Shown here: piece by piece, positions 1 through 15,400 of the stretch | How positions within the stretch are numbered: position 1 is the stretch's first letter | Layout: every line of letters begins with the position of its first letter | From: Rhodoferax ferrireducens T118 | GTDB taxonomy: Bacteria; Pseudomonadota; Gammaproteobacteria; Burkholderiales; Burkholderiaceae_C | Direction of reading: 5' to 3' | NCBI RefSeq assembly: GCF_000013605.1 | Contig: NC_007908.1 | Span: 248,001 to 312,000, forward strand | Length of the DNA: 64,000 bases | Position numbers and translations under genes: made by a program | Notes under the pieces: generated by a model | What the model saw: only the letters and a program-made list of their open reading frames with translations | What the model was told of the DNA's origin: nothing | Databases searched by the model: none

Positions 1-728
1 TCTTTCTTATAAGCCTCATGGCAGGAAATGCAGCTGATTCTTCCATCTGACAACAAAATTTTCTTTTGTGCCAACTGATTCTCCGGTTGGAAGCCGCCTC
101 TCTTGCTCGCGTCACGGTAGCTGCGCCCGATTGGGTGAGGAGCCGCACCGCTGGCATGACGCAGGACGCCGCTGCTGCCGATGCTGACTGATCCGCCATC
201 CGAATGACTGCCTGCGTGGCATCCCAGGCAATGCAAGGAATGCACATCGATGTCGATGGTGCTGCGCCCGCGACTCACATCCAAATGTCCCGAAATTACC
301 ATTGAAGTTCCTGCATCTTTCATGCTACGGAAAAATGCTTGATCATGACAGGTCAAGCAGAAATCCTTGCCATGTTTTTTGCCACGCAGCAGGCCAGGCT
401 CCCTGCCGTGTGGCAAATGGCAGGTGCTGCAGGTCAGATCTCCTTTCCAATCGAGCGGATACTCAGCGGGCAGGCTTCTCTTTGGCGCAAAGCCGCTGGG
501 GTGGCTGACCTCAATCGCCCGCGCGTGGCACCTTGCACAAAGTAGCTCTTGGGATGAGACCAGCTTCGACGCCTGGTCCTGGTCGACATTGGGTCCGGCA
601 AGATGACAGACGCCACAGTCTGTTCTGGCTGGATGTCCGTTCCCGCGGCCTACATCCGCATGCAGCAACGCTGCCATGCCCAAAGCAGCGACGCCGAAAC
701 CGGCGATGAACCATTTATAAGTTGACAA
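1..728 (-). CDS. Multiheme c-type cytochrome, 3' end cut by window edge
   Basis: Six CXXCH haem-binding motifs lie in one minus-strand frame: CGVCH, CARCH, CSTCH, CLTCH, CLGCH and CISCH, in that order from the N-terminus. The frame stays open to the window edge, so the protein has at least six haems. No ATG sits before the hydrophobic N-terminus. The best start is TTG at 728, giving STYKWFIAGFGVAALGMAAL, a signal or anchor helix. An internal ATG at 677 would remove that helix. The TTG start overlaps the end of the upstream HAMP gene by 14 bases, suggesting translational coupling. The product is presumably periplasmic or anchored and would carry electrons for the island. The frame and haem motifs are seen directly; the start and the role are inferred. 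Confidence 0.85.
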   Translation of the reverse strand, partial: MSTYKWFIAGFGVAALGMAALLHADVGRGNGHPARTDCGVCHLAGPNVDQDQASKLVSSQELLCARCHARAIEVSHPSGFAPKRSLPAEYPLDWKGDLTCSTCHLPHGREPGLLRGKKHGKDFCLTCHDQAFFRSMKDAGTSMVISGHLDVSRGRSTIDIDVHSLHCLGCHAGSHSDGGSVSIGSSGVLRHASGAAPHPIGRSYRDASKRGGFQPENQLAQKKILLSDGRISCISCHEAYKK

Positions 729-1260
729 GCTGTTCTGCTTTTTTCAGGCGGGCAATCCCCGTTGCTAACGCTGTTGAGTCTTCGGCTTCGCTAATGGGCG
801 CCAATGCATTCTCGACCTCGCCGAGTGCTTGTTTCAGTTCTTCGTGTTGCGCGCGCAGAGCCGAAACGCTGGCTTCGAACTCTTCCCATTCCCGCTGCAG
901 GCTGTCGGTATGTCGAATTGGCAGCGGTGCGACCAGTCCATGATTGATTAGAAGTTCCAGATTGCGTGATATCCGGTACAAGGGGCCGGCAATGCGAAAG
1001 CTGGCGTAGATAGAAAATAGCCATGCGGTGATACCTGCGAAACTGACCAGCGCGAAGCCGAAGACCAACATCGCCGGACCCAAACTCACCTTGCTCAGGG
1101 CAAAGGCACTGATGATTTGCCTATAGCCGCTCGCTTTGCCGTCACTAACCAAAATAAGCACTAGCAACAATCCCAGAAAGGATGCGACTGCCACGCGTAG
1201 ACCGATTTTGGCGACCATCCTGACATCTGGCGCAACATGGACGTGGTGGCTCTTGCGCAT
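715..1260 (-). CDS. HAMP-domain inner-membrane protein
   Basis: A 181-residue protein with two hydrophobic helices (about residues 18-38 and 58-84), separated by only a short periplasmic loop. A HAMP-like linker follows (around RIAGPLYRISRNLE), then an acidic, probably coiled-coil tail. It has no methyl-accepting signalling domain, kinase or cyclase domain, so it is a truncated chemoreceptor-like architecture. It sits directly upstream of, and overlaps, the minus-strand multiheme cytochrome gene, so the two are probably co-transcribed. Its role is unknown; it may be a membrane scaffold or a sensor of redox state for the cytochrome module. The start at ATG 1260 is the only good one. Confidence 0.7.
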   Translation of the reverse strand: MRKSHHVHVAPDVRMVAKIGLRVAVASFLGLLLVLILVSDGKASGYRQIISAFALSKVSLGPAMLVFGFALVSFAGITAWLFSIYASFRIAGPLYRISRNLELLINHGLVAPLPIRHTDSLQREWEEFEASVSALRAQHEELKQALGEVENALAPISEAEDSTALATGIARLKKAEQLVNL

Positions 1261-1683
1261 ATCTAATTATTTTTTACAGTTTTCGTGAAGCGTGGATTAA
1301 TGTGGATCAGTACCGGGTACAGAGGCTAGGAGTCTCAAAGTAACTCCATGCGATCGAGCATCGTGTAGCTAAAGCAAATACCTTGCCAGCGCATGTGTCT
1401 ACTCTGGTGCTGTACCAAAGCTGCATGTTGATTTTCCAGTTCTTGAGAGCGATTTTCCCGTATTTGAGAATGGCGACATCTCGGATGACGCCTCAATCCC
1501 ACGGGCGTCACACCTGAAGCGGAACGCTCACGGCATCCAGAAACACGCGCTTGTATTGGCATATATCGTGCTTGAAACCATTTATTGTCATAGTCATGAG
1601 CAAGCAATGTCTTCTATTCTTCCTGCGTTCGGCCGAATCCACTGCTATTGCGTTCGTTCCGAAAATATGCTGGAGACGTCGCT
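1261..1683. promoter_or_regulatory. Divergent intergenic region, 423 bp
   Basis: This gap separates the minus-strand HAMP/cytochrome pair from the plus-strand cytochrome series and must hold both promoters. Open frames in it have no ribosome binding site, no family resemblance and low-complexity translations, so I call no gene. The end nearest 1684 carries GGAG eight bases before the ATG. I see no convincing sigma-70 pair or long inverted repeat. Confidence 0.45.
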
Positions 1684-2364
1684 ATGAAGTGGTTGATGGC
1701 AATTGTCTACATGTTGCTGCTATCGCCAGCCCTATACGGTGGCAGCGTCATCGGTACGCGCCATGACCTGAGCACAGCAGGTACGCCGCAGGTGTGCGAG
1801 TTTTGTCACACGCCGCACGGCGCGAACACCAACCTTCAGGCCCCATTGTGGAACCGCGCCGAAACGACGCAGGTGTTTACGCTGTACGGTAGTCCGACAA
1901 TGAATGTCGCTGTCGGGCAGCCCCGCGTGGCTTCGCGCTTGTGCCTGAGTTGCCATGACGGCGTGAATGCCAGCACCGTGGTTCATGGCAACAGCGTAAG
2001 CACGAAACACGACCTCGTGAAACCGCCAGGCCACCCCGCCCCCGATATGACTTCGGAACCCAACTGTGAACGGTGTCACTCGGATATGTACGGCGGCAAG
2101 AAGCGAACGCTGGTGCTTGGTACCGACCTGAGCAACGATCACCCAATCTCCATCGACTACCCCACTGCGGCTCAGGATTCCGCATTCAAAGCACCCACCG
2201 ACGCCCAGAAAGGCTGGGGCGGAACATCGCCCAATGAAGTGAAGCTTTACGCCGGGGCGGTCGAGTGCGGCTCTTGCCACAATGTGCATAGCAACGACTT
2301 TGCGCCGTTCCTGCGCAAGTCCAATGCGGCAAGTGCTCTGTGCACCACCTGCCATGCCAAGTAA
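1684..2364 (+). CDS. Pentaheme c-type cytochrome, OmcE-like module
   Basis: A 226-residue secreted cytochrome: signal peptide MKWLMAIVYMLLLSPALYG, then CEFCH, CLSCH, CERCH, CGSCH and CTTCH, the last ending three residues before the C-terminus. The order HDLS-VC-CHTPHG-PLWNR-CLSCHDG-GTDLSNDHP-CGSCH-LCTTCH is shared with the proteins at 4623-5312 and at the N-terminus of 9881-11638. This copy has an extra haem motif (CERCH) with added histidines inserted between the second and third common motifs. The ATG at 1684 has GGAG upstream; an earlier in-frame TTG at 1648 would spoil the signal peptide. It is first in the plus-strand cytochrome series. It is probably a periplasmic or cell-surface electron carrier, and possibly a filament subunit (inference). 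Confidence 0.88.
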   Translation: MKWLMAIVYMLLLSPALYGGSVIGTRHDLSTAGTPQVCEFCHTPHGANTNLQAPLWNRAETTQVFTLYGSPTMNVAVGQPRVASRLCLSCHDGVNASTVVHGNSVSTKHDLVKPPGHPAPDMTSEPNCERCHSDMYGGKKRTLVLGTDLSNDHPISIDYPTAAQDSAFKAPTDAQKGWGGTSPNEVKLYAGAVECGSCHNVHSNDFAPFLRKSNAASALCTTCHAK

Positions 2365-2409
2365 GCAGCGCGAGCCCGCTGCCACATGCGTTTCACTCAA
2401 GGAAGTTCA

Positions 2410-3522
2410 ATGACCCCTACACGCGGTGCTTTTGCCGTTTTGTTCTCGTTCGCGTTGGCGGTTTCAACCGGCCTCTTCGCGCAAACCACTCAGCCCAAGT
2501 CAAGCGCGGCGAGTGCCGACGTGTTGGCCGAAAAAGCCGCTGCTGCGCCAGCGGGACGTGCGTCCGCACCCCGATCACTGGTGCCGCTGCCGGCCAAACC
2601 GGCACCGACTTCAAGCCACGCGCCGTTCGAGGCGGGCGACTGCAAGATCTGCCATCAGAACGCAGACCCCAAGCACCCTGGTCCAGTGTTTAAAAAGGGG
2701 CCGGCCCTGTGCCTGGATTGCCATGAGGAATTCAATGGCGTGATGAAGCGAGCGCACACGCATGCGCCGGCACGCACCGACTGTACTAGCTGTCATAACC
2801 CACACAATTCGGTGTTCTCCAAGCTGTTACATCTGGAGCCACGGGCTCTGTGCGTCAGTTGCCACGAGAAGATCGGAAAACTTCACGACAGTGCCAAAGT
2901 GCCGCATAAAGCGCTCACTACTGGTAAATACTGCAGCAATTGCCACAACCCGCATGGCAGCACGGTAGAGAAGCTACTGATTCAATTGCCTTTTGACCTG
3001 TGCGTTAACTGCCACAGCGTCGATACCATGGCTGATGCCAATGGCAAGAAGCTGCAAAACATCAAGGCTTGGCTGCTTGACAACCCGAAGCAGCACGGGC
3101 CGGTGGCTTCCAAGGACTGTAACGATTGTCACGAGCCCCACGGAGGTGATCTCTTCCGCCTGATCAACCAAGACTATCCGCCAGAGTTTTATGCCCCATA
3201 CGACGCCAAAAATTACGGGTTGTGCTTTGGCTGTCACAGGGAAAAAGCGTTCTCTACCGCGCAGACGGCCACGCTCACCAGTTTTCGCAATGGCGCCACC
3301 AACCTGCATTACCTTCATCTGCAGCAATCTGGTCGTGGGCGTACCTGCCGTGCCTGCCATGAGGTGCACGCAGCCAAGCAGGATCACCTTATCCGCGACG
3401 GCGTGCCTTACGGATCGGGCGGCTGGATACTCAAGCTGAACTACAAGAAGACGGCAACCGGCGGCTCGTGCGAAAAGACCTGTCACGCGGAGAAAAGCTA
3501 CGCCAATCGGACGGCGCCTTAG
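2410..3522 (+). CDS. Decaheme c-type cytochrome with paired CXXCH repeats
   Basis: A 370-residue protein with signal peptide (FAVLFSFALAVSTGLFAQ). It has nine CXXCH motifs: CKICH, CLDCH, CTSCH, CVSCH, CSNCH, CVNCH, CNDCH, CFGCH and CRACH. A last CXXXCH motif, CEKTCH, stands near the C-terminus. Motifs come in pairs followed by NPH or EPH, the doubled-CXXCH pattern, so it is likely an extended haem wire in the periplasm or across the outer membrane. AAGGAAG just before the ATG at 2410 supports this start over the ATG at 2386. It starts 45 bases after the preceding stop and ends two bases before the next gene, so it is in an operon. The longer CXXXCH spacing also closes the twelve-haem protein downstream. 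Confidence 0.9.
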   Translation: MTPTRGAFAVLFSFALAVSTGLFAQTTQPKSSAASADVLAEKAAAAPAGRASAPRSLVPLPAKPAPTSSHAPFEAGDCKICHQNADPKHPGPVFKKGPALCLDCHEEFNGVMKRAHTHAPARTDCTSCHNPHNSVFSKLLHLEPRALCVSCHEKIGKLHDSAKVPHKALTTGKYCSNCHNPHGSTVEKLLIQLPFDLCVNCHSVDTMADANGKKLQNIKAWLLDNPKQHGPVASKDCNDCHEPHGGDLFRLINQDYPPEFYAPYDAKNYGLCFGCHREKAFSTAQTATLTSFRNGATNLHYLHLQQSGRGRTCRACHEVHAAKQDHLIRDGVPYGSGGWILKLNYKKTATGGSCEKTCHAEKSYANRTAP

Positions 3523-3524
3523 CA

Positions 3525-4337
3525 ATGAATATCGCGGCCCTGCTGGTGCTGGTTGGGCTGGTGGCGGTCTTCCAACCGGCCAGTGCGGCGCATGCCGCGA
3601 TCGGAACCCCGGTTGCGAGCACCGAGATGCCCACCCTGGAGGGTGGGAAAGCCCAGGTAATGGGAAACGTCGAGGCCAACGTGCTGGTGTTCTTTCGCCC
3701 GGATCAGCCGCGCTCGGCGGGCGCGCTGCGGGAGTTGGCGCGCTGCCAGAAGGATTTCGCTGGCAAGTCCGTGCGTTGGGTGGCGGTAGTCCCCAGTTCC
3801 GCATCGTTGCCAGGCGTGATGACATTGATGCGCGACACCAGCTTCGCAGCTCCGGTGCTGCTGGACAATGGGGATGCGCTTTACGGCAGTCTGGGCTTGG
3901 ACCTGCATCCAGTGGTGGTTATTGTTGGTCGCGATCAAAAACTGGCTGCATTTGAGCCGTTTCGGGTATTGGACTATTGCACCGTCATCAGCGCGCGTAT
4001 CCGCCATGTGCTGCGTGAAATCTCCGACGCTGAATTGGGTGCCGTGCTCGATCCACCCAAGGCTACGCAGGGCGGCAACGAACAGGTCGCACGGCGCTAT
4101 CGCGCGTTTGCCGAGGTCCAGTTCAAGAACAAGGATTACGACAAAGCACTCGTCAGCGTGCGCAAGGGCCTCGCCAAAGACCCCCTGCTGGCACCCGCAC
4201 ATGCCCTGCTGGGCCAGATTCTGCTGGCTCAGGGCAACTGTGCCGACGCGGTCCCCGCATTCAATCAGGCGCTGCTGCTTGACGGCGCCAGCACAGTTGC
4301 CAGGGACGGCCTGGAACGCTGCAAGTCGGCGCGCTGA
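3525..4337 (+). CDS. Secreted thioredoxin-fold protein with C-terminal TPR, no CXXC
   Basis: A 270-residue protein. Signal peptide (about residues 1-25, ending ASAAHAA), then an AhpC/TlpA-like thioredoxin fold. The segment that should carry WCXXC instead reads FFRPDQPRSAG, so it cannot do dithiol chemistry. The C-terminal third (about 185-270) has tetratricopeptide helices (YDKALVSVRKGLAKDPLLAP and the following repeat). The start at 3525, two bases after the previous stop, gives a clean signal peptide. The combination suggests a periplasmic chaperone or scaffold for the cytochromes around it. That role is inferred only from architecture and context. Confidence 0.75.
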   Translation: MNIAALLVLVGLVAVFQPASAAHAAIGTPVASTEMPTLEGGKAQVMGNVEANVLVFFRPDQPRSAGALRELARCQKDFAGKSVRWVAVVPSSASLPGVMTLMRDTSFAAPVLLDNGDALYGSLGLDLHPVVVIVGRDQKLAAFEPFRVLDYCTVISARIRHVLREISDAELGAVLDPPKATQGGNEQVARRYRAFAEVQFKNKDYDKALVSVRKGLAKDPLLAPAHALLGQILLAQGNCADAVPAFNQALLLDGASTVARDGLERCKSAR

Positions 4338-4622: not shown

Positions 4623-5312
4623 ATGAAATCCCAATTGAGATGTTTGAAATGGGCCGGGCTGGCAGCCGCATCGCTGCTATTGACGCTTGGCGCGACATCG
4701 GCGCAGGCGGCCATCGGAACCATCGTTGGTTCAGTGCACGATTTCTCCACCACAGGCCCCAACGCGACCTACAAAGGCACAAGTACTCAGGTTTGCATCT
4801 ATTGCCACGCGCCCCACAATACCGGTTCTACGCTATTGTGGAATCGTGCTACTAATGGTGCAACCTACTCTCTATATAGCTCCACAGTCAGTTCCACAAT
4901 GAACGCCACAACGGGGCAACCGGGTGCCGTTTCCAAGCTCTGCCTGTCCTGCCATGACGGCACCGTTGCGATCGACAGTTTTGGCGGCGCCACCGGAAGC
5001 AAAATGGTCACGGGCGCACCTTTGCTCGGCACCGACCTCAGCAACGACCACCCAATCGGGTTCCCATATAACGCTGCACTCGTAACGGCTGACCCTGGTT
5101 TGCGCGCCGTTAGCACTGCCGCAACCATCGGCACCGGTAATGTGGGTACGATTGAAAGCAAGATGCTGTTCGGGGCCTCAGGGGCAGCCACCGTGGAGTG
5201 CGCTTCCTGCCATGATGTGCATAACAGCACCTCGGGAACCGCAGTGCAAGCCAAGCTGCTGAAAGTTACCACAGTGGGTAGCGCGCTCTGCACAACTTGC
5301 CACATCAAGTAG
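4623..5312 (+). CDS. Tetraheme c-type cytochrome, candidate OmcE-like filament subunit
   Basis: A 229-residue protein with signal peptide ending ATSAQA and four haem motifs: CIYCH, CLSCH, CASCH and CTTCH. Outside those motifs the mature protein has exactly four histidines (in SVHD, APHN, NDHP and DVHN), the number needed for four bis-histidine haems. Size, motif order and the terminal CTTCH match what I recall of Geobacter OmcE, whose subunits polymerise into extracellular haem wires. The neighbouring beta-propeller lipoproteins and beta-barrel fit such loci. AGGAAAAGGAACAC precedes the ATG, and a 285-base leader suggests its own promoter. Haem count and histidines are read directly; polymerisation is a hypothesis. 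It could instead be a soluble periplasmic carrier. Confidence 0.88.
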   Translation: MKSQLRCLKWAGLAAASLLLTLGATSAQAAIGTIVGSVHDFSTTGPNATYKGTSTQVCIYCHAPHNTGSTLLWNRATNGATYSLYSSTVSSTMNATTGQPGAVSKLCLSCHDGTVAIDSFGGATGSKMVTGAPLLGTDLSNDHPIGFPYNAALVTADPGLRAVSTAATIGTGNVGTIESKMLFGASGAATVECASCHDVHNSTSGTAVQAKLLKVTTVGSALCTTCHIK

Positions 5313-5579: not shown

Positions 5580-6734
5580 ATGCCCAACTCATCAACGACC
5601 ATGTTCCTGCCTACTCGACTACGATTTTTCAGTGCACTGCTCGGCGCGCTTATGCTGCTGTCCGGCTGCGTCACGCAGCCTACCAAAGCACCGCTGCAAA
5701 AAGAGGCCGTGTTCTACCCGCGAGCGCCGGATGCGCCGCGCGTGCAGCATCTGGCCACTTTTGCCAGCGCGCGCGATCTGGAAACCGCCAAAGAAAGTGG
5801 TGGGCTCAAGGATTTTCTGCTCGGCGAAGAAAAAGTCGAGGACGCCTTGGTGCGTCCTTACGGCGTGGCGATGTCCGATAGCAAGATCTACGTCGCCGAT
5901 AGTCGAGGCCCCGGCTTGGCGGTTTTTGACCTCAAAACCAGAAAATTTTCACTCATGTCGGGGTCGGGTGCTGGACGCATGCAGCGCCCCATCAATGTAG
6001 CCATCGACGCAGACGATACCAAGTACGTGACTGACACCGCGCGTAATCAGGTACTGGTCTATGACAAGGGCGACCGTTATCTTGCAGCCTATGGCGGCAA
6101 GGATGAGTTCAAGCCGGTCGATGTCGCGATTGCCGGCGATCGGCTGTATGTGGTGGACATCGAGCACCATGAAGTCCAGGTGCTGGACAAGCGATCGGGG
6201 AAACTACAGTTCAAATTTGGCAAGTCCGATGTTGATAAAGAGAAGTCATTGCATCAACCGACCAATCTTGCCGTTGGCCGCGACGGGGACATCTATGTTG
6301 TCGAAACCGGAAACTTCCGCGTTGCGCGTTTCACGCCCGAGGGTAAGTTCGTGCGCCATTACGGCGAAGCGGGTCAGGCGCCGGGGCAGTTTGCACGGCC
6401 CAAGGGGATCGCGATGGACCGCTCCGGTCGCATGTACGTCAGCGATGCGGCATTCCAGAATGTGCAGATCTTCGACGGTCAGGGGCGTGTGCTCATGGCT
6501 TTCGGGCAGCCAGGGGGGGATTTGCCCGGTCTCAACCTGCCAGCAGGTGTTGCCATCGATTACGACAACGTGGCGCTGTTTCGCAGCCTCGCAGACCCCA
6601 AATTTTCCATCGAGCACCTGATTCTGGTCGTGAGTCAATTTGGGCCCAACCAGGTTGACGTCTTCGGTTTCGGAAAAATGGCCGGTGTTGACTATCCCCA
6701 GGACGAGAAGCTCGAATCCAAACCGGTCCCGTGA
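5580..6734 (+). CDS. NHL-repeat beta-propeller lipoprotein
   Basis: About 384 residues with a lipoprotein signal peptide whose lipobox is LLSGC. Repeated NHL-type blades follow, for example RPYGVAMSDSKIYVADSRG, QPTNLAVGRDGDIYVVETGN and RPKGIAMDRSGRMYVSDAAF, predicting a six-bladed propeller. It is likely anchored in the outer membrane. ATG 5580 gives the longest product; ATG 5601 (MFLPTRLRFF) is an equally plausible start and neither has a strong ribosome binding site. It precedes the beta-barrel gene and has a paralogue at 8853-9884, so barrel and propellers probably form one complex. A 267-base gap without a gene separates it from the tetraheme gene. The propeller call is firm, the function unknown. 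Confidence 0.85.
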   Translation: MPNSSTTMFLPTRLRFFSALLGALMLLSGCVTQPTKAPLQKEAVFYPRAPDAPRVQHLATFASARDLETAKESGGLKDFLLGEEKVEDALVRPYGVAMSDSKIYVADSRGPGLAVFDLKTRKFSLMSGSGAGRMQRPINVAIDADDTKYVTDTARNQVLVYDKGDRYLAAYGGKDEFKPVDVAIAGDRLYVVDIEHHEVQVLDKRSGKLQFKFGKSDVDKEKSLHQPTNLAVGRDGDIYVVETGNFRVARFTPEGKFVRHYGEAGQAPGQFARPKGIAMDRSGRMYVSDAAFQNVQIFDGQGRVLMAFGQPGGDLPGLNLPAGVAIDYDNVALFRSLADPKFSIEHLILVVSQFGPNQVDVFGFGKMAGVDYPQDEKLESKPVP

Positions 6735-6792
6735 CGGCGCCTGCCACCTGAACCGCAGCCGCGCAATACGGGTCGCAAACGTGAATCAGTCT

Positions 6793-8850
6793 ATGCCCAA
6801 CCGGGCAGCCTGCCTCATTACCCGCCTGGCGATCGGCGTCGCCTTGTTACCCGTAGTGAGCAGTTGCTGGGCCCAGGCCAGCGCGCCTTTGCGGCTCAAA
6901 AGCGCATCGGAGATTGCGCCGTTTCGAATCATAGGGATAGACGGCTACGTCAAGGCGCGCTATTTGACCGATGACAGTAGCAGCGTTGGGGCAGCCGGCG
7001 GCACGCCGGTGCGCGCCACGCAGTCGAACCTGAGCGAGGAGATTTACCTCATGACGCACAGCTACATCTATCACCCCAGCCTGCTGCTGCTCGATCTGGG
7101 TGGTGGCCCGATCATTGACAAGAGCCAGGACGGCGGTGACGGGGTAGGAACGAGTGCAAGACGGCAAATGTTCAACCTCAATGGGCGTGCAACATTCCTG
7201 CGTGACAAGCCTTATACCGGAGCATTTTTTTACGACCGCAGTAACCAGACCCAGAGCATGGGTCCAGCACAGCAGATGTTCAACGAAAATACCAGGTATG
7301 GTGCAACCTTTTCGCTGCTCAGTCCGGTTACCCCGGTGCCAATGCAAGTGGAACTCACCCGCTCCACGAGCCAGGGAAAAGGAGCTGAACAGGTCATGGA
7401 TGACCGTATCGATCAGTTACGAATCAAGATGGATGCCACCATAAGCAAGTTGGGTGGGTCAACGTTTCAATTCGTGGGTACGCGCCAGGACTCTGCCAGC
7501 GGCAGCTCCGGCCTGCCGATTCAGGCCAGCCGTTCCGCCAGCGACAGGGCGAACCTGGATACGCGCCTGAAGTTTGGGTCGACGAACGAATACGAGCTCA
7601 GCAATGCGGTCGCGCTGAATCGGAGCAGCTTTACGGGCGGCCAAGGCTCGCTGGCGAATCAGAAGGACGCCAGTTTCGGGCTCGACCTGCGCGGAAGGCA
7701 CTCCGAGGAGTTGCAGACCTACGGGCGATACAACGTCAATGCCAGTCGGCAGGATGGTCAGTCGATGACCCTGAATGCGGCGAGCGCCGGGCTCAGCTAT
7801 CGCGTCAATCCCGACCTGTCTGGCGCACTCGCAGTGCGCGGCGAGGTCAATAGAGCGAGCCAGCTAAGCTCGACCTTCTACGCGATTGACGGCTCCGCCC
7901 AATACCGGCAAACGCTGCCACTGGGCCAGGCGACTGCGGGCTACAACGTCTCCTATAGTCAACGCGACCAGCAGGCAACATCGCTGCAAACAAAGATGCT
8001 CGGCGAGCATGTGACCTTGGGCAGTACAAGCTTCGTTTCATTGAGCAAGCCGCAAATCATAGCCAGCACAGTGGTAGTCACCAATCTGACGCGTACACAG
8101 ACCTTTGTCGAAGGCGGCGATTATTTGCTGTCCCAAATCGGCCTTGAGTTGCGCATTCAGCGGCTGATAGGCGGCAATATTCTCGATGGACAAGAGGTCT
8201 TGATCGACTATGACTATTCAAGTGGCGGCAGTTACGCGGCGAGCCAGCTTGACAACACGCTCAGCCTGAGCTGGTCGTACAAGAGTTACCTCAACTTCTT
8301 CGTGCGCCACCTTGCTTCGACACCGCGACTCGAGTCCGGCTCGCCGACTTCGCCGCTCAACTCGGTCAATAGCACGTTCTACGGTGCGCGCACCGACATT
8401 CCGCTATCGCTGCTAACGCAGGAATTCCTGCTGGGTGGCAGTGCCGAGCGCGAAGTTCGACGCGAAACCATCTCGTCCTACAGACGCGCCAATCTTGAGG
8501 CGTATGTTCAGACGGATTTGCCCCTGGTCAGAAGCGGCAATATCCACATAGGCGCTCGGCAAATGCAAGTGAACTACGAAGACAGCCCGTTGCAAGCGGT
8601 GAAGCTGACAGCCGTAGATATTCGTCTATGGGCGCGCATCGGCTATGGCATCGATCTATCCGCCGAAGCGAGTCGCCACCGTGATACCGGCGCGCCGGAG
8701 CTGCGGGAAGGCTCGGCGGCATCGGTCAGGGCACAGTGGCGCCAGCGCAAGCTGCTTTGGACACTCGACCTGACCCGTGTGCATGATGCCCAGGGCTTGG
8801 CCGAAAGAACGCGCACCTATGGACAGCTGTTATTAAGGAGAGACTTTTGA
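6793..8850 (+). CDS. Large outer-membrane beta-barrel protein of the cytochrome island
   Basis: A 685-residue protein with an N-terminal signal (ITRLAIGVALLPVVSSCWAQ). The mature chain of alternating polar and hydrophobic residues is rich in Ser, Thr, Gln, Asn and aromatics, and ends RTRTYGQLLLRRDF, a typical barrel end with terminal Phe. Length is close to MtrB/PioB-type porins (about 700), but I do not see the MtrB N-terminal CXXC. GTG at 6781 is an alternative start; extending upstream would overlap the NHL gene. Two NHL lipoprotein genes flank it and multiheme cytochromes follow, so an outer-membrane conduit or exporter for cytochromes is the best inference. Barrel topology is judged by eye only. 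Confidence 0.75.
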   Translation: MPNRAACLITRLAIGVALLPVVSSCWAQASAPLRLKSASEIAPFRIIGIDGYVKARYLTDDSSSVGAAGGTPVRATQSNLSEEIYLMTHSYIYHPSLLLLDLGGGPIIDKSQDGGDGVGTSARRQMFNLNGRATFLRDKPYTGAFFYDRSNQTQSMGPAQQMFNENTRYGATFSLLSPVTPVPMQVELTRSTSQGKGAEQVMDDRIDQLRIKMDATISKLGGSTFQFVGTRQDSASGSSGLPIQASRSASDRANLDTRLKFGSTNEYELSNAVALNRSSFTGGQGSLANQKDASFGLDLRGRHSEELQTYGRYNVNASRQDGQSMTLNAASAGLSYRVNPDLSGALAVRGEVNRASQLSSTFYAIDGSAQYRQTLPLGQATAGYNVSYSQRDQQATSLQTKMLGEHVTLGSTSFVSLSKPQIIASTVVVTNLTRTQTFVEGGDYLLSQIGLELRIQRLIGGNILDGQEVLIDYDYSSGGSYAASQLDNTLSLSWSYKSYLNFFVRHLASTPRLESGSPTSPLNSVNSTFYGARTDIPLSLLTQEFLLGGSAEREVRRETISSYRRANLEAYVQTDLPLVRSGNIHIGARQMQVNYEDSPLQAVKLTAVDIRLWARIGYGIDLSAEASRHRDTGAPELREGSAASVRAQWRQRKLLWTLDLTRVHDAQGLAERTRTYGQLLLRRDF

Positions 8851-8852
8851 TC

Positions 8853-9884
8853 ATGACGCGCGCTTATCGCTTTGCCATGGCACTGGGACTGCTGCTTGCG
8901 CTAGGCGTGTTGGGCGCTTGCGCGCCGCTCCCGCCCAAGCCAGCGGATCAGGCGCCGTTGGCGTGGCCGGACCTTCCCAATCCACCGCGCATTACCTTCG
9001 TCAGGCAATTTTCCAAGCCGGATGATTTCAGCATTGGCAAGGGTTTTTTCCAACGTCTGGGAGATCTGCTCTTCGGTGCCCGTGGAGAGCGGCTGATCCG
9101 ACCCTTGGCGGTGGTCACGAACAACGGTGTGGTGTTTGTCGCCGATCCTGGTGCCAATGGTGTGCACCGTTTCGATCAGACGAAGGCGCGCTACGATCTG
9201 ATCGTCGGTGAAGGCGGCCAGGCCTTGCCTTCGCCTGTGGCCCTGGCACTGGGTAGTGCGGGCGAGGTGTACTTGACCGATTCCAACCGCGCCCAAGTGC
9301 TGGTGATTCAGCCCGGGGCCGCAATGGCGACGCCGCTGGCGCTGCCGGACATGGCTCAACCCACTGGAATCGCGTTTGACAAGAGCAATGGCAATCTCTA
9401 TGTTGTCGATACTGGTGCACATCGCGTCAATGTGTTTAAGCCGGATGGCACCTTGGTCTTCAGTTTCGGTGCGCGCGGCGATGGTGCCGGGCAGTTCAAT
9501 TACCCGACGATGATTTGGTTTGATCGCGGCGGACGCTTGTACGTGACTGATTCTCTCAATTTTCGCATTCAGATGTTCAGCCGTAACGGCAAGTACCTGA
9601 GTGGCTTTGGGCAAGTGGGTGACGGTTTGGGTGACAACATACGCCCGAAGAGTGTCGCCACCGACAGCCATGGGCACGTCTACGTCGTCGACGCGTTGCA
9701 CAATGCGCTGCAAATTTTCGATGTGCTAGGCAGATACCTTCTCTCGGTCGGCTCAATAGGCAATGATCGCGGTGAGTTCTGGCTGCCTGCCGGAATTTTC
9801 ATAGATGAAAACGACCTGATTTACATTGCCGACTCGTACAACCAGCGGGTCCAGGTATTTCGCTATATTGGAGGACCGTCGTGA
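8853..9884 (+). CDS. Second NHL-repeat beta-propeller lipoprotein
   Basis: A 343-residue protein whose signal ends in the lipobox VLGAC, followed by NHL blades: RPLAVVTNNGVVFVADPGAN, QPTGIAFDKSNGNLYVVDTG, YPTMIWFDRGGRLYVTDSLN and RPKSVATDSHGHVYVVDALH. It is a paralogue of the protein at 5580-6734; the pair brackets the barrel gene. AAGGAG at 8835-8840 serves either the ATG at 8853 or an in-frame TTG at 8847. The gene overlaps the following twelve-haem gene by four bases, so the proteins are translationally coupled. Probably an outer-membrane lipoprotein handling or docking secreted cytochromes (inference). Confidence 0.87.
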   Translation: MTRAYRFAMALGLLLALGVLGACAPLPPKPADQAPLAWPDLPNPPRITFVRQFSKPDDFSIGKGFFQRLGDLLFGARGERLIRPLAVVTNNGVVFVADPGANGVHRFDQTKARYDLIVGEGGQALPSPVALALGSAGEVYLTDSNRAQVLVIQPGAAMATPLALPDMAQPTGIAFDKSNGNLYVVDTGAHRVNVFKPDGTLVFSFGARGDGAGQFNYPTMIWFDRGGRLYVTDSLNFRIQMFSRNGKYLSGFGQVGDGLGDNIRPKSVATDSHGHVYVVDALHNALQIFDVLGRYLLSVGSIGNDRGEFWLPAGIFIDENDLIYIADSYNQRVQVFRYIGGPS

Positions 9885-11638
9885 TCAAGCACCAGTTCGC
9901 AGCGCTTGCCGCTGCGGCAACAATGGTCCTGCTGCTCTGGGCGGGTGCACCCGCTCAATCGGCGAGCATAGTTGCCAACAAGCACAATCTGTCGGCTACG
10001 GGTCCGGGCACGATCAAGGCCACATCTGAAGGCGAAGTCTGTGTGTTTTGCCACGTGCCACACAATTCACGGGCCACCGGTCCGCTGTGGAACCGCGACC
10101 AGCCGGTCGGCTCCTACACGCCCTACACCAGCAGCACACGCAAAATCTCCGCCCCCGGCCAGCCGACTGGTGCTTCACTCTTGTGCCTGAGCTGCCATGA
10201 CGGAACCATCGCGCTAGGCAAGGTCAGCAGCCGCACCGCCAACATCGCCATAGCTGGCGGCAAAAATAATTTCCTCCTCGGTGATCAAAGCTACATCGGC
10301 ACTGACTTGTCAGACGACCATCCGGTGTCTTTTCTTTATTCGAGCGTGCTCAGCAATACAGAGCTGCGCACCCCGACCGGCGCCGTGAAGCTCGACGCCA
10401 GCGGGCAGATGCAGTGCACCTCCTGCCACAGTCCGCACGACAATGCCAACGGCAAGTTTCTGGTGGTGAGCAACATCAAGTCGGGACTGTGCACCAACTG
10501 CCACAACAAGAGCTACTGGGCGGCCAGCGATCACCAGACCTCGACCAAGACCTGGAATGGCGTGGGGACCAATCCCTGGCTGCACACAACGAATACGCCC
10601 CAAAACGTCACCAACAACGCCTGCGAGAGCTGCCACCGGCCGCACACGGCGCCGGGCAGACAGCAACTGCTGAACAGTGCAACGGAAGAAACGAATTGCC
10701 TGGTATGCCACAGCGGCACGGTGGCGACATCGGCCAAGAATATCCAGATTGAGTTGAATAAAACTTCCCAACACAGCGTGGGCGCCTATCTGAATGTGCA
10801 CGATGCGGGCGAAGCCAACTTGATGACGACCGCTCACGTCGAATGCCAGGACTGCCATAACCCTCATTCTGCCAATAGCACAGCCGGCTCTGCACCTGGC
10901 ACCACGCCGATTGCGTTGCCGGGCTCACTCAGCAACGTGCGCGGCATCACCATCAGCGGTGCGGCGGTTAGCCCAGTCACGGCCGAGTACCAGATTTGTT
11001 TGCGCTGCCATGGTGACAGCACCAGCAGGACGCCGGCATCGCGCACCGCGCGCGTGATCGTGCAAACCAACACGCGGCTGGAATTCGATACTGCCAATCC
11101 GTCCTACCATCCGATTGCCGGCGTTGGTAAGGCGACCGGGGTAACCGGCAAGACGGTCCCCAGCCTGATTGCGCCCTGGACGACAACGAGTGTGATGAAT
11201 TGCAGCGACTGCCACAACAACAACGCGGGGCCAAACACCGGGGGCACTGGTCCCAACGGCCCGCACGGCTCCACCAATCCACTGTTGCTGGAGCGTTCCT
11301 ACGTGGTGACCGATCCGGCGACAGAAAGCGCCGCTAACTATGCGCTTTGCTACAAATGCCACAGCCGGACCGCCATTATTGGCACTGGCGCGGGTAGCTT
11401 CAAGGAACACAACAAACACATTGTTGGCGAGACGACCTCTTGCAACGTCTGCCATGACCCGCACGGCATCAGCAGTACCCAGGGCACGGCTCTGAGCAAC
11501 AGCCGATTAATCAATTTCCAAACTGGTGTTGTAACCAAGAGTGGCGCGCAGGCCATTCGCTGGGAGCGTGTGGGCACGACCGGCGGTCGCTGCTACCTGT
11601 CCTGTCATGGGAAAGACCACAACGGCTTGTCTTATTAA
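9881..11638 (+). CDS. Dodecaheme c-type cytochrome
   Basis: A 585-residue secreted cytochrome (signal ends GAPAQSAS). It has eleven CXXCH motifs (CVFCH, CLSCH, CTSCH, CTNCH, CESCH, CLVCH, CQDCH, CLRCH, CSDCH, CYKCH, CNVCH) and a final CXXXCH, CYLSCH. Residues about 30-205 repeat the module of the four- and five-haem proteins: HNLSATG, CHVPHN, PLWNRD, CLSCHDGTIA, GTDLSDDHP, CTSCHSPH, LCTNCH. The rest is a further eight-haem domain, so the protein looks like an OmcE-like unit fused to a larger haem wire. The GTG start at 9881 is preceded by GGAGG and overlaps the NHL gene stop. It is the best candidate for the extracellular or outer-membrane cytochrome of the conduit. Confidence 0.92.
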   Translation: MIKHQFAALAAAATMVLLLWAGAPAQSASIVANKHNLSATGPGTIKATSEGEVCVFCHVPHNSRATGPLWNRDQPVGSYTPYTSSTRKISAPGQPTGASLLCLSCHDGTIALGKVSSRTANIAIAGGKNNFLLGDQSYIGTDLSDDHPVSFLYSSVLSNTELRTPTGAVKLDASGQMQCTSCHSPHDNANGKFLVVSNIKSGLCTNCHNKSYWAASDHQTSTKTWNGVGTNPWLHTTNTPQNVTNNACESCHRPHTAPGRQQLLNSATEETNCLVCHSGTVATSAKNIQIELNKTSQHSVGAYLNVHDAGEANLMTTAHVECQDCHNPHSANSTAGSAPGTTPIALPGSLSNVRGITISGAAVSPVTAEYQICLRCHGDSTSRTPASRTARVIVQTNTRLEFDTANPSYHPIAGVGKATGVTGKTVPSLIAPWTTTSVMNCSDCHNNNAGPNTGGTGPNGPHGSTNPLLLERSYVVTDPATESAANYALCYKCHSRTAIIGTGAGSFKEHNKHIVGETTSCNVCHDPHGISSTQGTALSNSRLINFQTGVVTKSGAQAIRWERVGTTGGRCYLSCHGKDHNGLSY

Positions 11639-11726: not shown

Positions 11727-12365
11727 ATGAAAAATACACCTAGTCTCAAGGCAAGCCTGGCATGGGCGTTGGCTCTGACCTTTACTTTCGCATTGCCGGT
11801 CCTGGCTCAGAACCGGGACAAGGACAAAGACAAAGACAAAGCATGCCTTGAGTGTCACGCCGCCGTCGCACAGAAGAAGGTGGTGCATGCGGCGGTTCAT
11901 ATGGGCTGCAACAGTTGCCATAATGAAGTCGAATTGAACACAGTGCCGCACAAGTCCAGAAGCAAGACCGCAAAAGAGCGCTCGGCCGAGAACGCCGCGA
12001 TGTGCGCCAATTGCCATGACAAGAAGTTGTTTGAAGGAAAAGTAGTTCACGCTCCAATTGCGGCGGGCGAGTGCAATGACTGCCACGACCCCCATGCATC
12101 GGACAACCTTGGACTCCTGAAGAAAGAGCCTGCGACGCTGTGCCTGGACTGCCATCCCGACATCAAGAAGGGTCCCCACGTCGTCGCCGGATTTACGCGA
12201 TCCGGGCATCCTCTGGGCGATGAAAAGAAAGAGGCGAAGGATCCGCTACGCTCGGGCAAGAAATTCTATTGCGGCAGTTGTCACGAGCCCCACAGCTCGG
12301 AACGTCCCAAGCTCAACCGCTTCGGCTTGGGCATGGTTGCCTGCCAGAAATGCCACGAGAAGTGA
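11727..12365 (+). CDS. Heptaheme c-type cytochrome
   Basis: A 212-residue protein with signal peptide ending FALPVLAQ, an unusual charged linker of alternating Asp and Lys, then seven CXXCH motifs: CLECH, CNSCH, CANCH, CNDCH, CLDCH, CGSCH and CQKCH. There are eight further histidines, enough for bis-His ligation of every haem. It ends two residues after the last haem motif. The ATG at 11727 is required because the ATG at 11723 is in a frame that stops at once. It is likely the periplasmic carrier that feeds or drains the outer-membrane cytochromes. It closes the island; the next gene is on the opposite strand. Confidence 0.9.
   Translation: MKNTPSLKASLAWALALTFTFALPVLAQNRDKDKDKDKACLECHAAVAQKKVVHAAVHMGCNSCHNEVELNTVPHKSRSKTAKERSAENAAMCANCHDKKLFEGKVVHAPIAAGECNDCHDPHASDNLGLLKKEPATLCLDCHPDIKKGPHVVAGFTRSGHPLGDEKKEAKDPLRSGKKFYCGSCHEPHSSERPKLNRFGLGMVACQKCHEK
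11817..11840 (+). repeat. In-frame hexanucleotide tandem repeat (GACAAR x4)
   Basis: Four tandem copies of GACAAG/GACAAA encode Asp-Lys four times between the signal peptide and the first haem motif of the heptaheme cytochrome. A six-base unit keeps frame when copy number changes, so the linker length could vary between strains. Confidence 0.8.
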
Positions 12366-12474
12366 TGCGCACGAATAGGCTCCGACGGAGCGTCTGATGA
12401 AAAGTGAGCGATGGCTGTGCAGGCCTCGGAGCGCGCGCCGCTTTTCACCAGAGACTTGGGAAAAGTTCACAGCG

Positions 12475-15400
12475 TTACTTCGCCACCAGCCCCAGTTTGA
12501 GCGGCACCGGCTTGCCAATGTCGGATTCGACCTTCTCAGGCGCCGCCGCGTCGGCGCGGGCGGGGTCGACGCCGGCTTCCTTGAGCGCTGCCAGAATCGC
12601 TTCGGCTCGCTGCGCACCCAGCTTGGCCAGGGCATCGGCGGCCAGCGGCTGGTTCTGGTTCAGGCGCTCCTGCAACTGGTTGTAGAAGGCACTGGCATCG
12701 GCCACCTGCGGTTCGCCCTGGATCATCTTGCCGACGCGCTGCCAGAGCGGCAATTTCGCCTGGGCCGCTGCGGTCTTGGTGTCCGGCATACTCGCCGCAG
12801 CAGCGGGAGCGCCGCCGCCTTCCGCTGCCTTTTTCTGCTTGTCGAGTTCCGCCTCGCCGAAGCGCTCGGCATACAGGTCGCGCATCGCGCCGCGCACCGC
12901 GCGATCGCTCAGGTTCAACGGACCGGGCTCTTCGCCTGCCTGGAGCTTGATGCCGGCACGGCGGGCGATCTCGACCCGCACTGCGCCCGCCCGCAAGGCG
13001 GCGCCATCGGCTGTTTCGCTGTACTGTGCGGGCACCGAGAGTTTCAGTTGCGCGCGCTTGCCCAGAATCTGAGCCACCTGCTTGAGCTTTTCGCGCTCCG
13101 GGGGCAGCAGCCTGTCGCTGCCGGCATCGAAGTCGATCGACTCCAGCTTCTCGCCGCTGACGCCCAGCAGGCTGCCCAACGCGCGGAACGGCGCGGTGAC
13201 GATCCTGGTCAGCAGGTTCCCGATGGCCTTCCAGATGATGGCGCCGTAGCTGAACTGCGGGTCACTGAGGTTGCCCGAGATTGGCAGGCCGAGGTCGATG
13301 CGGCCCTCGCTGTCCTTGAGGATGGCGATTGCCAGTTGCAGCGGCAGCTTGAGCGCATCGGGGCTGTCGACCCGCTCGCCCAGGGTCAGTTTGTCGATGA
13401 CGATCTGGTTGGCGCCTTCCAGCTGGCTGTCGCGTATTTTGTATTGCAGGTCCAGCGAAATCTTGCCCTCGGCGACCTTGTAGCCGGCGAACTTCATGCT
13501 GTAGGGTGAGGCCGGCACCATGTCGACATTCTTGAACACGACGTTGATGTCGGTGTTGTTGCGCGGCGCGAACGGGTTGAGCTCGCCGCGGATGCGCGCC
13601 AGGCCGAACTCGTCGACTCGGCCGTCAAGCTCGATCTGGCTGCGCGCCTCGCGGTTCGACGAGAGTCCGTTGATCACGCCGTTGAGCTCGTAGATCTTGG
13701 CGCTGAACTGCGGCCGCAAACTGAGATCGGTGAAGTCCAGCTTGGCGTTCTGCAGGCGCAGGCGCCGGATTCGAACCGGGAACGGGTCGTCGTCGGCCTT
13801 AGCCTTGGCCTGAGTCGGCACCTCGACTTTTGCGCCTGCATTGGGCTGCACCAGCAAGCGGGCCGCATTGAAGCTGCGATCGTCTTCGATGATCAGCGTG
13901 GCGTTGGGCTCGACGATACGCAATTCCGGGACGTCGAGCCGGTTGGGGTTGAGGCTGGCCGTGAACTTGTCGGCGCTGGCGTTCTTCCACGCGGCGAACA
14001 GGCCACCGTCCTCCTCGTTGAGCGTCAGCCCGGCAACGTTGAGCGCGCCGACGTAACGCAGGCTCGGGCTCTTGGCTGTGCCCGCGCCGGTGGTGAGCAG
14101 CCCTTGCGCGGAGACATTGCCGCGGGCGATTTTCAACTTCAGATAGTGGGCCAGGAGGGGCTGCAAGGGCGCCAGCGCGAGCTGCTTGAGACGCACATCG
14201 GCCTGCACTTCACCGTTGGCCGGGACCACGCTGCCTTGTGCCGTGAACTGCCCCCCTTCGCGCAGCTTCAGGTCGGTGTTGAACTTGACCGTCTGCTTGA
14301 GATCGCTGCTGGCGCCTTCGAGTTTCAGCGCAAGGTCGGTGACCTGAACCTTGACGCCGGCGCCCTCATCCGCAACATCGGCGCCGAACTTGCTTAATTC
14401 CACGGTCTTGGCCACGGCGACCCATGGCTTGCCGGCTGCCGCCGCAGCCTGCGGTCCGATCGCGCTGGATCGGGGCAATAACTCCATGAGATTGAGTTTT
14501 CCGTCCCGTGCGCGCACGAGCTGCAGTTGCCCGCCCTCGGCATAGAGGCGCCCGATGCTGGCCTGCCGGGCAGCGAGGTCAAGCATGCCGTCCGAGAAAC
14601 CCAGCTGCGCCAGCTTGAACGGCGCTTGCGCCCCGCTGGCCAGCGTCAGGCCAGCGAGTGAAAGGGCAGCCTGCGAGAGCTTCAGCTGGAAGTTGGCGCC
14701 TGCCTGCTCGGCGGCAACTTGCAGCTGCAGCCGCACTTTGCCCGCGTTCAACTTCAGCGGTGGTTTGGCCGTTTCGTCCACCGCGCTGACCGCCATCTGA
14801 TCGAATAGCACTTGCTTGACCGCCAGCTTCCAGTTGTTGACAGCCACCGCGGCAGCCGGCCCCGAGGCCGCCGGACCCGCGCTGGCGATCATGAGGTTCG
14901 TCAGATCGAGTTCGCCCTTGGCGTCGCGTTTGACACTGAGCTTGCCGCCGTCGGCGCGCACCTCGCCCACCGTCACCTGCCGGCGTGCCAGATCGGCGTT
15001 GACGTCGTTGATGTCCAGGCGCGTCAGCGCGGCGAAGGAATCGGTAACGCCTTCGCGCGCCAGCGCCAGATCGCGCAGCGACACCTTGGCGCCTTCCAGG
15101 CTGGCTTCAAACTTGCCGTCCGCGTAGGACAGGCTGTACGGCAAGGTGGCGGAAAGCTGCCCGGCTGCCACCCTTGCACGGGTGTACGACTTGAGATAAA
15201 CCGCCAGCTCCGGCAGCGAGGCGTTTTCGAGGGTCACTTCGCCGCTGGCGCGGATCGGGTTCACCGACGCAGTGCCCTTCCAGCGCATCTTGCCGCCGCG
15301 CGCGGACTGGGCCGTGAAAGTATGGGCGTCGTTCTGCTCCGGCAAGGTGCTGAAATTGCTCAGCGAAAAATCGATCGGCGCAAAGGTGTTGTCGTAACCG

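Follow-up and report, generated by a model that had tools for sequence, protein, structure and literature searches.

A 64,000-nucleotide stretch of Rhodoferax ferrireducens T118 (the window; positions 248001-312000 of contig C2) contains a gene for a small tetrahaem cytochrome, named A here, which is a member of the OmcE family by sequence, ligand positions and predicted fold. We think it fairly probable that A is the subunit of an extracellular haem wire stacked head to tail, that a large OmcE-fused cytochrome encoded in the same gene block (C) is its docking end, and that NHL propeller lipoproteins assist. The observations behind this reading are the family of A, its conserved haem ligands, its predicted fold, its gene neighbourhood and the conservation of that neighbourhood. 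An earlier note, made from the DNA alone, had described A as OmcE-like, and this was borne out by the sequence, the ligand positions, the predicted fold and the NHL neighbours.

The CXXCH motifs of A begin at residues 58, 107, 193 and 223 by motif count, and the remaining histidines are residues 39, 65, 143 and 200 with no others, in exact agreement with the four CXXCH and four further histidines that had been reported before. The shorter signatures listed at that time (HD, CHAPHN, LWNR, CLSCHDG, DLSNDHP, CASCHDVH and LCTTCH) are likewise all present. Four CXXCH motifs were reached 0 times in 200,000 residue shuffles of A, the maximum being two. The N-terminus bears a hydrophobic stretch with a helix at residues 2-27 in the predicted structure, a candidate export signal. 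Against the OmcE filament structure 7tfs, A aligned over its full length (residues 11-229 to 7-232, E 5.8e-35) with 45% identity and thus about 55% divergence, and the profile search strengthened the match to E 4.6e-50. The haem-ligand residues, namely four CXXCH and four distal histidines at the OmcE positions, did not vary in any of the 64 chosen sequences (alignment and profile A1, made of 42 proteins out of 120 listed, 20 loci out of 79, A itself and its paralogue D). Foldseek with the predicted A monomer, modelled without haem, returned 7tfs as the sole match in the PDB. A is therefore like OmcE of Geobacter sulfurreducens in length, in its four CXXCH and four distal histidines and in predicted fold, whereas the nanowire of OmcE has been solved and A is known here from its sequence and a monomer model.

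The earlier note would have been refuted if soluble periplasmic cytochromes were the best matches; among solved structures, the best match of A was instead the OmcE nanowire. The next structure was 9yuq, a second family member with 16 identical chains that is known here by molecule name and chain count alone, and reaction-centre cytochromes followed only at E 0.03 or worse. Full-length homology to OmcS (6ef8) was not found in the profile comparison, which gave a whole-sequence E of 5.6e-8 with a best stretch of 17 residues. It is very improbable that A is an unrelated soluble periplasmic cytochrome of the c3/c7 type that owes its OmcE likeness to CXXCH motifs alone. Such an origin could be read from short Pfam matches to Cytochrome_C7 and Cytochrom_c3_2, yet the best of these stretches cover the last ~40 residues only, while the OmcE alignment runs along the entire sequence and takes in LWNR, GTDLSNDHP and the spacing, and the 7tfs match, the Foldseek result and the profile search all contradict it.

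The block around A runs in the order B, decahaem cytochrome, tetratricopeptide repeat (TPR) protein, A, NHL protein, barrel candidate, NHL protein, C and heptahaem cytochrome (Table 1). The haem motifs of the five window cytochromes counted, which leave aside one crossing the window edge, number 5, 10, 4, 12 and 7. The earlier note had named NHL propellers and a beta-barrel as neighbours: the propellers were recovered by Pfam, and the three NHL matches of the whole genome all fall within these two genes, while the barrel is suggested by the length, position and C-terminal Phe of its open reading frame (ORF), which has no Pfam match. C begins with an OmcE domain (residues 15-210, E 6e-30 to 7tfs) followed by eight haem motifs, and all 12 of its motifs and four OmcE-type distal histidines were invariant in 47 aligned, hand-chosen rows (alignment A2, comprising 45 proteins out of 120 listed, a single locus and the query).

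Table 1. Features of the cytochrome block, with positions counted from the first nucleotide of the window
Feature	Position	Strand	Details
B, pentahaem OmcE-domain paralogue	1648..2364	+	ORF from TTG 1648, scored start 1684
Decahaem cytochrome (9 CXXCH + 1 CX3CH), candidate periplasmic or porin-embedded electron donor	2386..3522	+	partial match to 6r2q chain A, E 3.7e-15
TPR-containing protein	3525..4337	+	ORF 3468-4337, scored start 3525
A, OmcE-like tetrahaem cytochrome, proposed filament subunit	4623..5312	+	229 amino acids, ATG to TAG, N-terminal signal-like helix
NHL beta-propeller	5580..6734	+	Pfam PF01436; lipobox-like LLSGC near N-terminus (by eye)
Candidate outer-membrane beta-barrel	6793..8850	+	ORF 6640-8850, scored start 6793, no Pfam match, C-terminal Phe
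NHL beta-propeller	8847..9884	+	Pfam PF01436; lipobox-like VLGAC (by eye)
C, cytochrome with 12 haem motifs (11 CXXCH + 1 CX3CH), candidate filament base or cap	9881..11638	+	585 amino acids
Heptahaem cytochrome, candidate periplasmic carrier	11727..12365	+	
Right copy of 347-bp direct repeat (94%)	12418..12764 (C2:260418-260764)		over 3' end of DUF748/AsmA-like gene

The arrangement recurs in other genomes. The 79 named loci were retained as the best among 353 confirmed stretches, so the sample leans to close relatives; both protein searches scored the 8000 candidates with the most shared words, and the relatives therefore number at least 6024 and at least 6315. An OmcE-domain ORF was present in 76 of the 79 loci by profile, and in 69 of these 76 an NHL propeller lay on the same strand within 1.5 kb of the OmcE-domain gene, compared with 20% by random placement. 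The C-terminal part of C was matched in 38 and the barrel candidate in 15 of 92 loci, a set that includes 13 short ones. Among 78 sources (the 76 loci, the window and L085, which covers DNA to the left of the window), 31 encode a large OmcE-fused cytochrome with at least 7 motifs, 29 of them together with a small OmcE-like gene of 4-6 motifs; in 12 further sources the locus ends within a second match. Rhodoferax sp. STA_46 (L006) retains the block, with a DNA identity of 78-81% over its two main segments. There, Vgb-like and regulator genes (72-77%) lie on the other side of the block, and regulator and kinase-end DNA adjoins it.

The small and large forms were compared on a quick tree of 101 rows, from which the rows of 21 loci had been dropped for size. 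Eleven tetrahaem proteins of 273-361 amino acids, in which the hidden Markov model envelope ends before the last motif, were not counted as fused. The label small or large changes twice on this tree, or once if a split gene in locus L068 is taken as large. A single set of 31 rows, with a Shimodaira-Hasegawa-like approximate likelihood ratio (SH-aLRT) support of 93, holds the large and the cut rows, each of the three cut rows fitting as large. Judged by record titles, six named phyla are represented among the 27 large rows, one of these phyla by a doubtful metagenome-assembled genome (MAG) titled Bifidobacterium. A strict motif expression recovered 50 of the 69 small rows, 24 of the 27 large rows and 2 of the 3 cut rows. 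The exact sets of 27 or 29 large rows were also tried as single clades and were rejected by the approximately unbiased test (p 4.7e-61 and p 0.0002), both sets having left out truncated large rows.

Export, polymerisation, the path and direction of the electrons, and the roles of C and of the NHL proteins we infer from these observations. A would be exported, would acquire four bis-His haems and would assemble head to tail on the outside of the cell. In the extracellular OmcE filament, haem 2 is ligated by a histidine of the adjacent subunit (PMC12203936), and one haem per A subunit may be ligated by its neighbour in the same way, giving a continuous haem wire. To enter the wire, electrons would pass along the MtrA-like decahaem cytochrome, the heptahaem cytochrome and the candidate outer-membrane barrel. 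In comparison with an MtrAB-type conduit, the decahaem cytochrome partly matches 6r2q chain A, which is MtrA (PMC12203936), while the barrel candidate has no Pfam match. C, starting with an OmcE domain, may be the fixed end or joint that docks the wire to the outer-membrane conduit, and the NHL propeller lipoproteins may help in assembly or anchoring. The direction would be outward, since the species reduces Fe(III) and electrodes; transfer of electrons to graphite electrodes is described for R. ferrireducens.

A lesser but real possibility is that A has the OmcE fold and acts as a monomer or short oligomer, that is, as an extracellular or outer-membrane-associated tetrahaem carrier between conduit and acceptor, without long wires. 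A monomer with four internal bis-His haems would use every histidine of A equally well, so the histidine count is no evidence for a filament and cannot separate the wire from the monomer. UetA, the tetrahaem protein of the Uet cluster of Candidatus Tenderia and Gallionella, is described in the available text only as an extracellular tetrahaem cytochrome (PMC10734462), and both the divergence from OmcE and the tree, which does not make A an OmcE ortholog, suit this alternative. On the other hand, the ligand residues are invariant at the OmcE positions, the fold search led to the OmcE nanowire alone, and 9yuq, a second family member, was solved with 16 identical chains, which may or may not form a filament.

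Several other observations weigh against a wire built from A. A and OmcE fall in different parts of the quick tree, OmcE being in the 'starred' part of 73 rows, so A is not its close sister; 39 of the 98 inner branches of that tree are open. The model of A has moderate confidence, with values below 50 at residues 26-33, 63-76 and 131-134, and that of C is poor, with a mean predicted local distance difference test (pLDDT) score of 50. Only small forms were seen in the available DNA of 35 of the 78 sources, and 7 of the 76 loci have no NHL gene within 1.5 kb, so neither partner is universal. The genome has four OmcE-domain paralogues, and any one of them could be the wire. A motif scan found 5 sigma-54 sites in the window, compared with 5.5 expected, and none in L085, which leaves control by the nearby activator unsupported by motif. 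What cytochrome filaments do physiologically is also a matter of dispute in the literature (PMC11077965, PMC12580347).

The four paralogues were recovered by a search of the whole genome (two contigs of 4,712,337 and 257,447 bases) with the A1 profile: A at 2.7e-90, D at 2.1e-78, B at 6.5e-52 and the first part of C at 3.8e-50. Weak matches were a cytochrome at the left edge of the window (4.2e-6) and a stretch of the decahaem cytochrome (8.7e-4). Matches at C2:249723 and C2:250110 are two pieces of one protein, B. D (C2:241503-242171, minus strand) is a tetrahaem protein 58% identical to A that lies outside the main block and adjoins a DUF748 fragment, within L085:9500-10285 (C2:241500-242285). 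D could be the real filament subunit, with A being minor, specialised or condition-specific, which we regard as unlikely. D retains all ligands and matches the A1 profile strongly, and a count of the genes suggests that it is the homologue reported in 2009 (see below). A, in contrast, sits inside the conserved block with the NHL proteins, the barrel candidate and the 12-motif protein, scores higher than D against OmcE (369 vs 332) and is retained at 83-84% identity in the same block of L006.

An OmcE homologue of R. ferrireducens, Rfer_0244, was named by Risso et al. in 2009, together with the lack of homologues of OmcS, OmcT and OmcZ; the available part of that report treats it as one gene, without mention of filaments or a cluster (PMC2755013). 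The earlier note had expected such a system to be novel or scarcely described in an organism like Rhodoferax; this is thus not supported, and A is an added member of a known family. Rfer_0216, the benzoate-coenzyme A ligase of the same report (PMC2755013), lies at C2:213352-214878. Counted from it on a rough gene call with one missed cytochrome added, and not by locus-tag look-up, Rfer_0244 lands on D and A falls near Rfer_0255. Rfer_0244 is therefore probably D, a different OmcE homologue of the same genome 11 kb from A. No title or abstract closer to A was found in the literature on OmcE or nanowires of Rhodoferax and Burkholderiales, a search outside which the defining OmcE and archaeal filament papers lie. 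What deserves further study is the pairing of the wire subunit with a large cytochrome that is fused to an OmcE domain.

By gene content, the T118 block resembles, like a cousin, the Uet cluster of cathode- and iron-oxidising bacteria, which is known here by its description: tetrahaem UetA, the peptidyl-prolyl isomerase (PPIase) UetB, the barrel UetC, trihaem UetDEG, the NHL proteins UetHI and undecahaem UetJ (PMC10734462). As far as the available description goes, both have a tetrahaem cytochrome, two NHL proteins, a barrel-sized ORF (a candidate barrel in T118) and a large cytochrome of 11-12 motifs. The PPIase of the Uet cluster has no counterpart in the form of a rotamase match among the island proteins of T118 scanned (two sets, of 10 and 6), and instead of trihaem proteins, absent among the five window cytochromes counted, T118 has the decahaem and heptahaem cytochromes. 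UetJ has 11 motifs and C 12, while the Gallionella table gives 11 and 12 (PMC10734462). Locus L037, from a Magnetococcales MAG, encodes in order an OmcE-like tetrahaem protein, a PPIase, a 679-residue ORF that matches no Pfam family, trihaem proteins in four ORFs, a single recognised NHL protein and an 11-motif OmcE-fused protein; the T118 barrel candidate had no tblastn match in it. Since this order matches Uet, UetA is probably related to OmcE, and UetJ is likely to have an OmcE domain at its start. The locus described in Geoalkalibacter ferrihydriticus also joins an OmcE homologue, two NHL proteins and an MtoA homologue, as in the T118 block, and its available description does not mention an OmcE-fused large protein (PMC12016550). 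NHL genes are reported in cytochrome clusters of D. ferrophilus as well (PMC9769857). As a separate observation, the Uet-like loci L037, L030, L056, L073 and L028 (Magnetococcales and Gammaproteobacteria MAGs) each carry a tetrahaem OmcE-like gene, trihaem ORFs and then an OmcE-fused cytochrome with 11 motifs, or 9 in L030, where the locus ends.

The way in which cytochrome nanowires attach to the cell and become charged is still an open question. We put forward tentatively, as an idea that may well be wrong, that OmcE-type wires are two-part systems of a tetrahaem repeat subunit and a dedicated base or cap, the large OmcE-fused cytochrome (12 motifs here, 11 in the Uet type). The fused domain would form the wire interface by histidine exchange, the extra 7-8 haems would plug into the outer-membrane barrel, and the NHL lipoproteins would hold the joint. 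The fusion would be one ancient event now seen in several phyla, and UetA/UetJ and the OmcE nanowires would form one wire family working in both directions. If so, the OmcE wires of Geobacter, which export electrons, would be linked with the Uet cluster of cathode- and iron-oxidising bacteria, and R. ferrireducens would gain a candidate long-range route beside MtrCAB, which has been reported for this species (PMC8805035). If C is the joint, this could be tested in a cultivated facultative anaerobe.

Some observations bear on the origin of the island. Homologues at E 1e-10 occur in 7 of 299 genomes of the family, its own included, and the first 12.4 kb of the window have 57.6% guanine plus cytosine, compared with 61.6% in the rest. 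The left copy of the 347-bp repeat lies outside the window at C2:241005-241349 (L085:9005-9349), and the two copies bracket the whole ~19-kb cytochrome island. The repeat looks like the scar of an insertion or duplication, and the bracketing by copies of the 3' end of the DUF748 gene suggests that the island was acquired or rearranged through that gene. DUF748 relatives are present in 9 of 60 genomes of the genus, its own included, whereas the gene on the left flank occurs in its own genome alone among the 60. No empty site of the island was found in these 60 genomes, two relatives sharing only DUF748 with the 99 kb compared, so a repeat-bounded insertion stays an inference. A plasmid search with the second contig gave no match, in a search that may leave out the organism's own records.

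Further genes lie at the left side of the window. A multihaem cytochrome crosses its left edge (1 to ~700, minus strand, from C2:247940), with two PF09699 matches in a 268-residue frame. It is flanked by two small proteins without Pfam match that look membrane-like by eye (window 715-1260 and L085:15380-15940, both minus). Farther left, L085:10614-14318 encodes a Tll0287-like protein with CXXCH, a HAMP histidine kinase and a sigma-54-type response regulator, and a Vgb-like propeller is also encoded left of the window.
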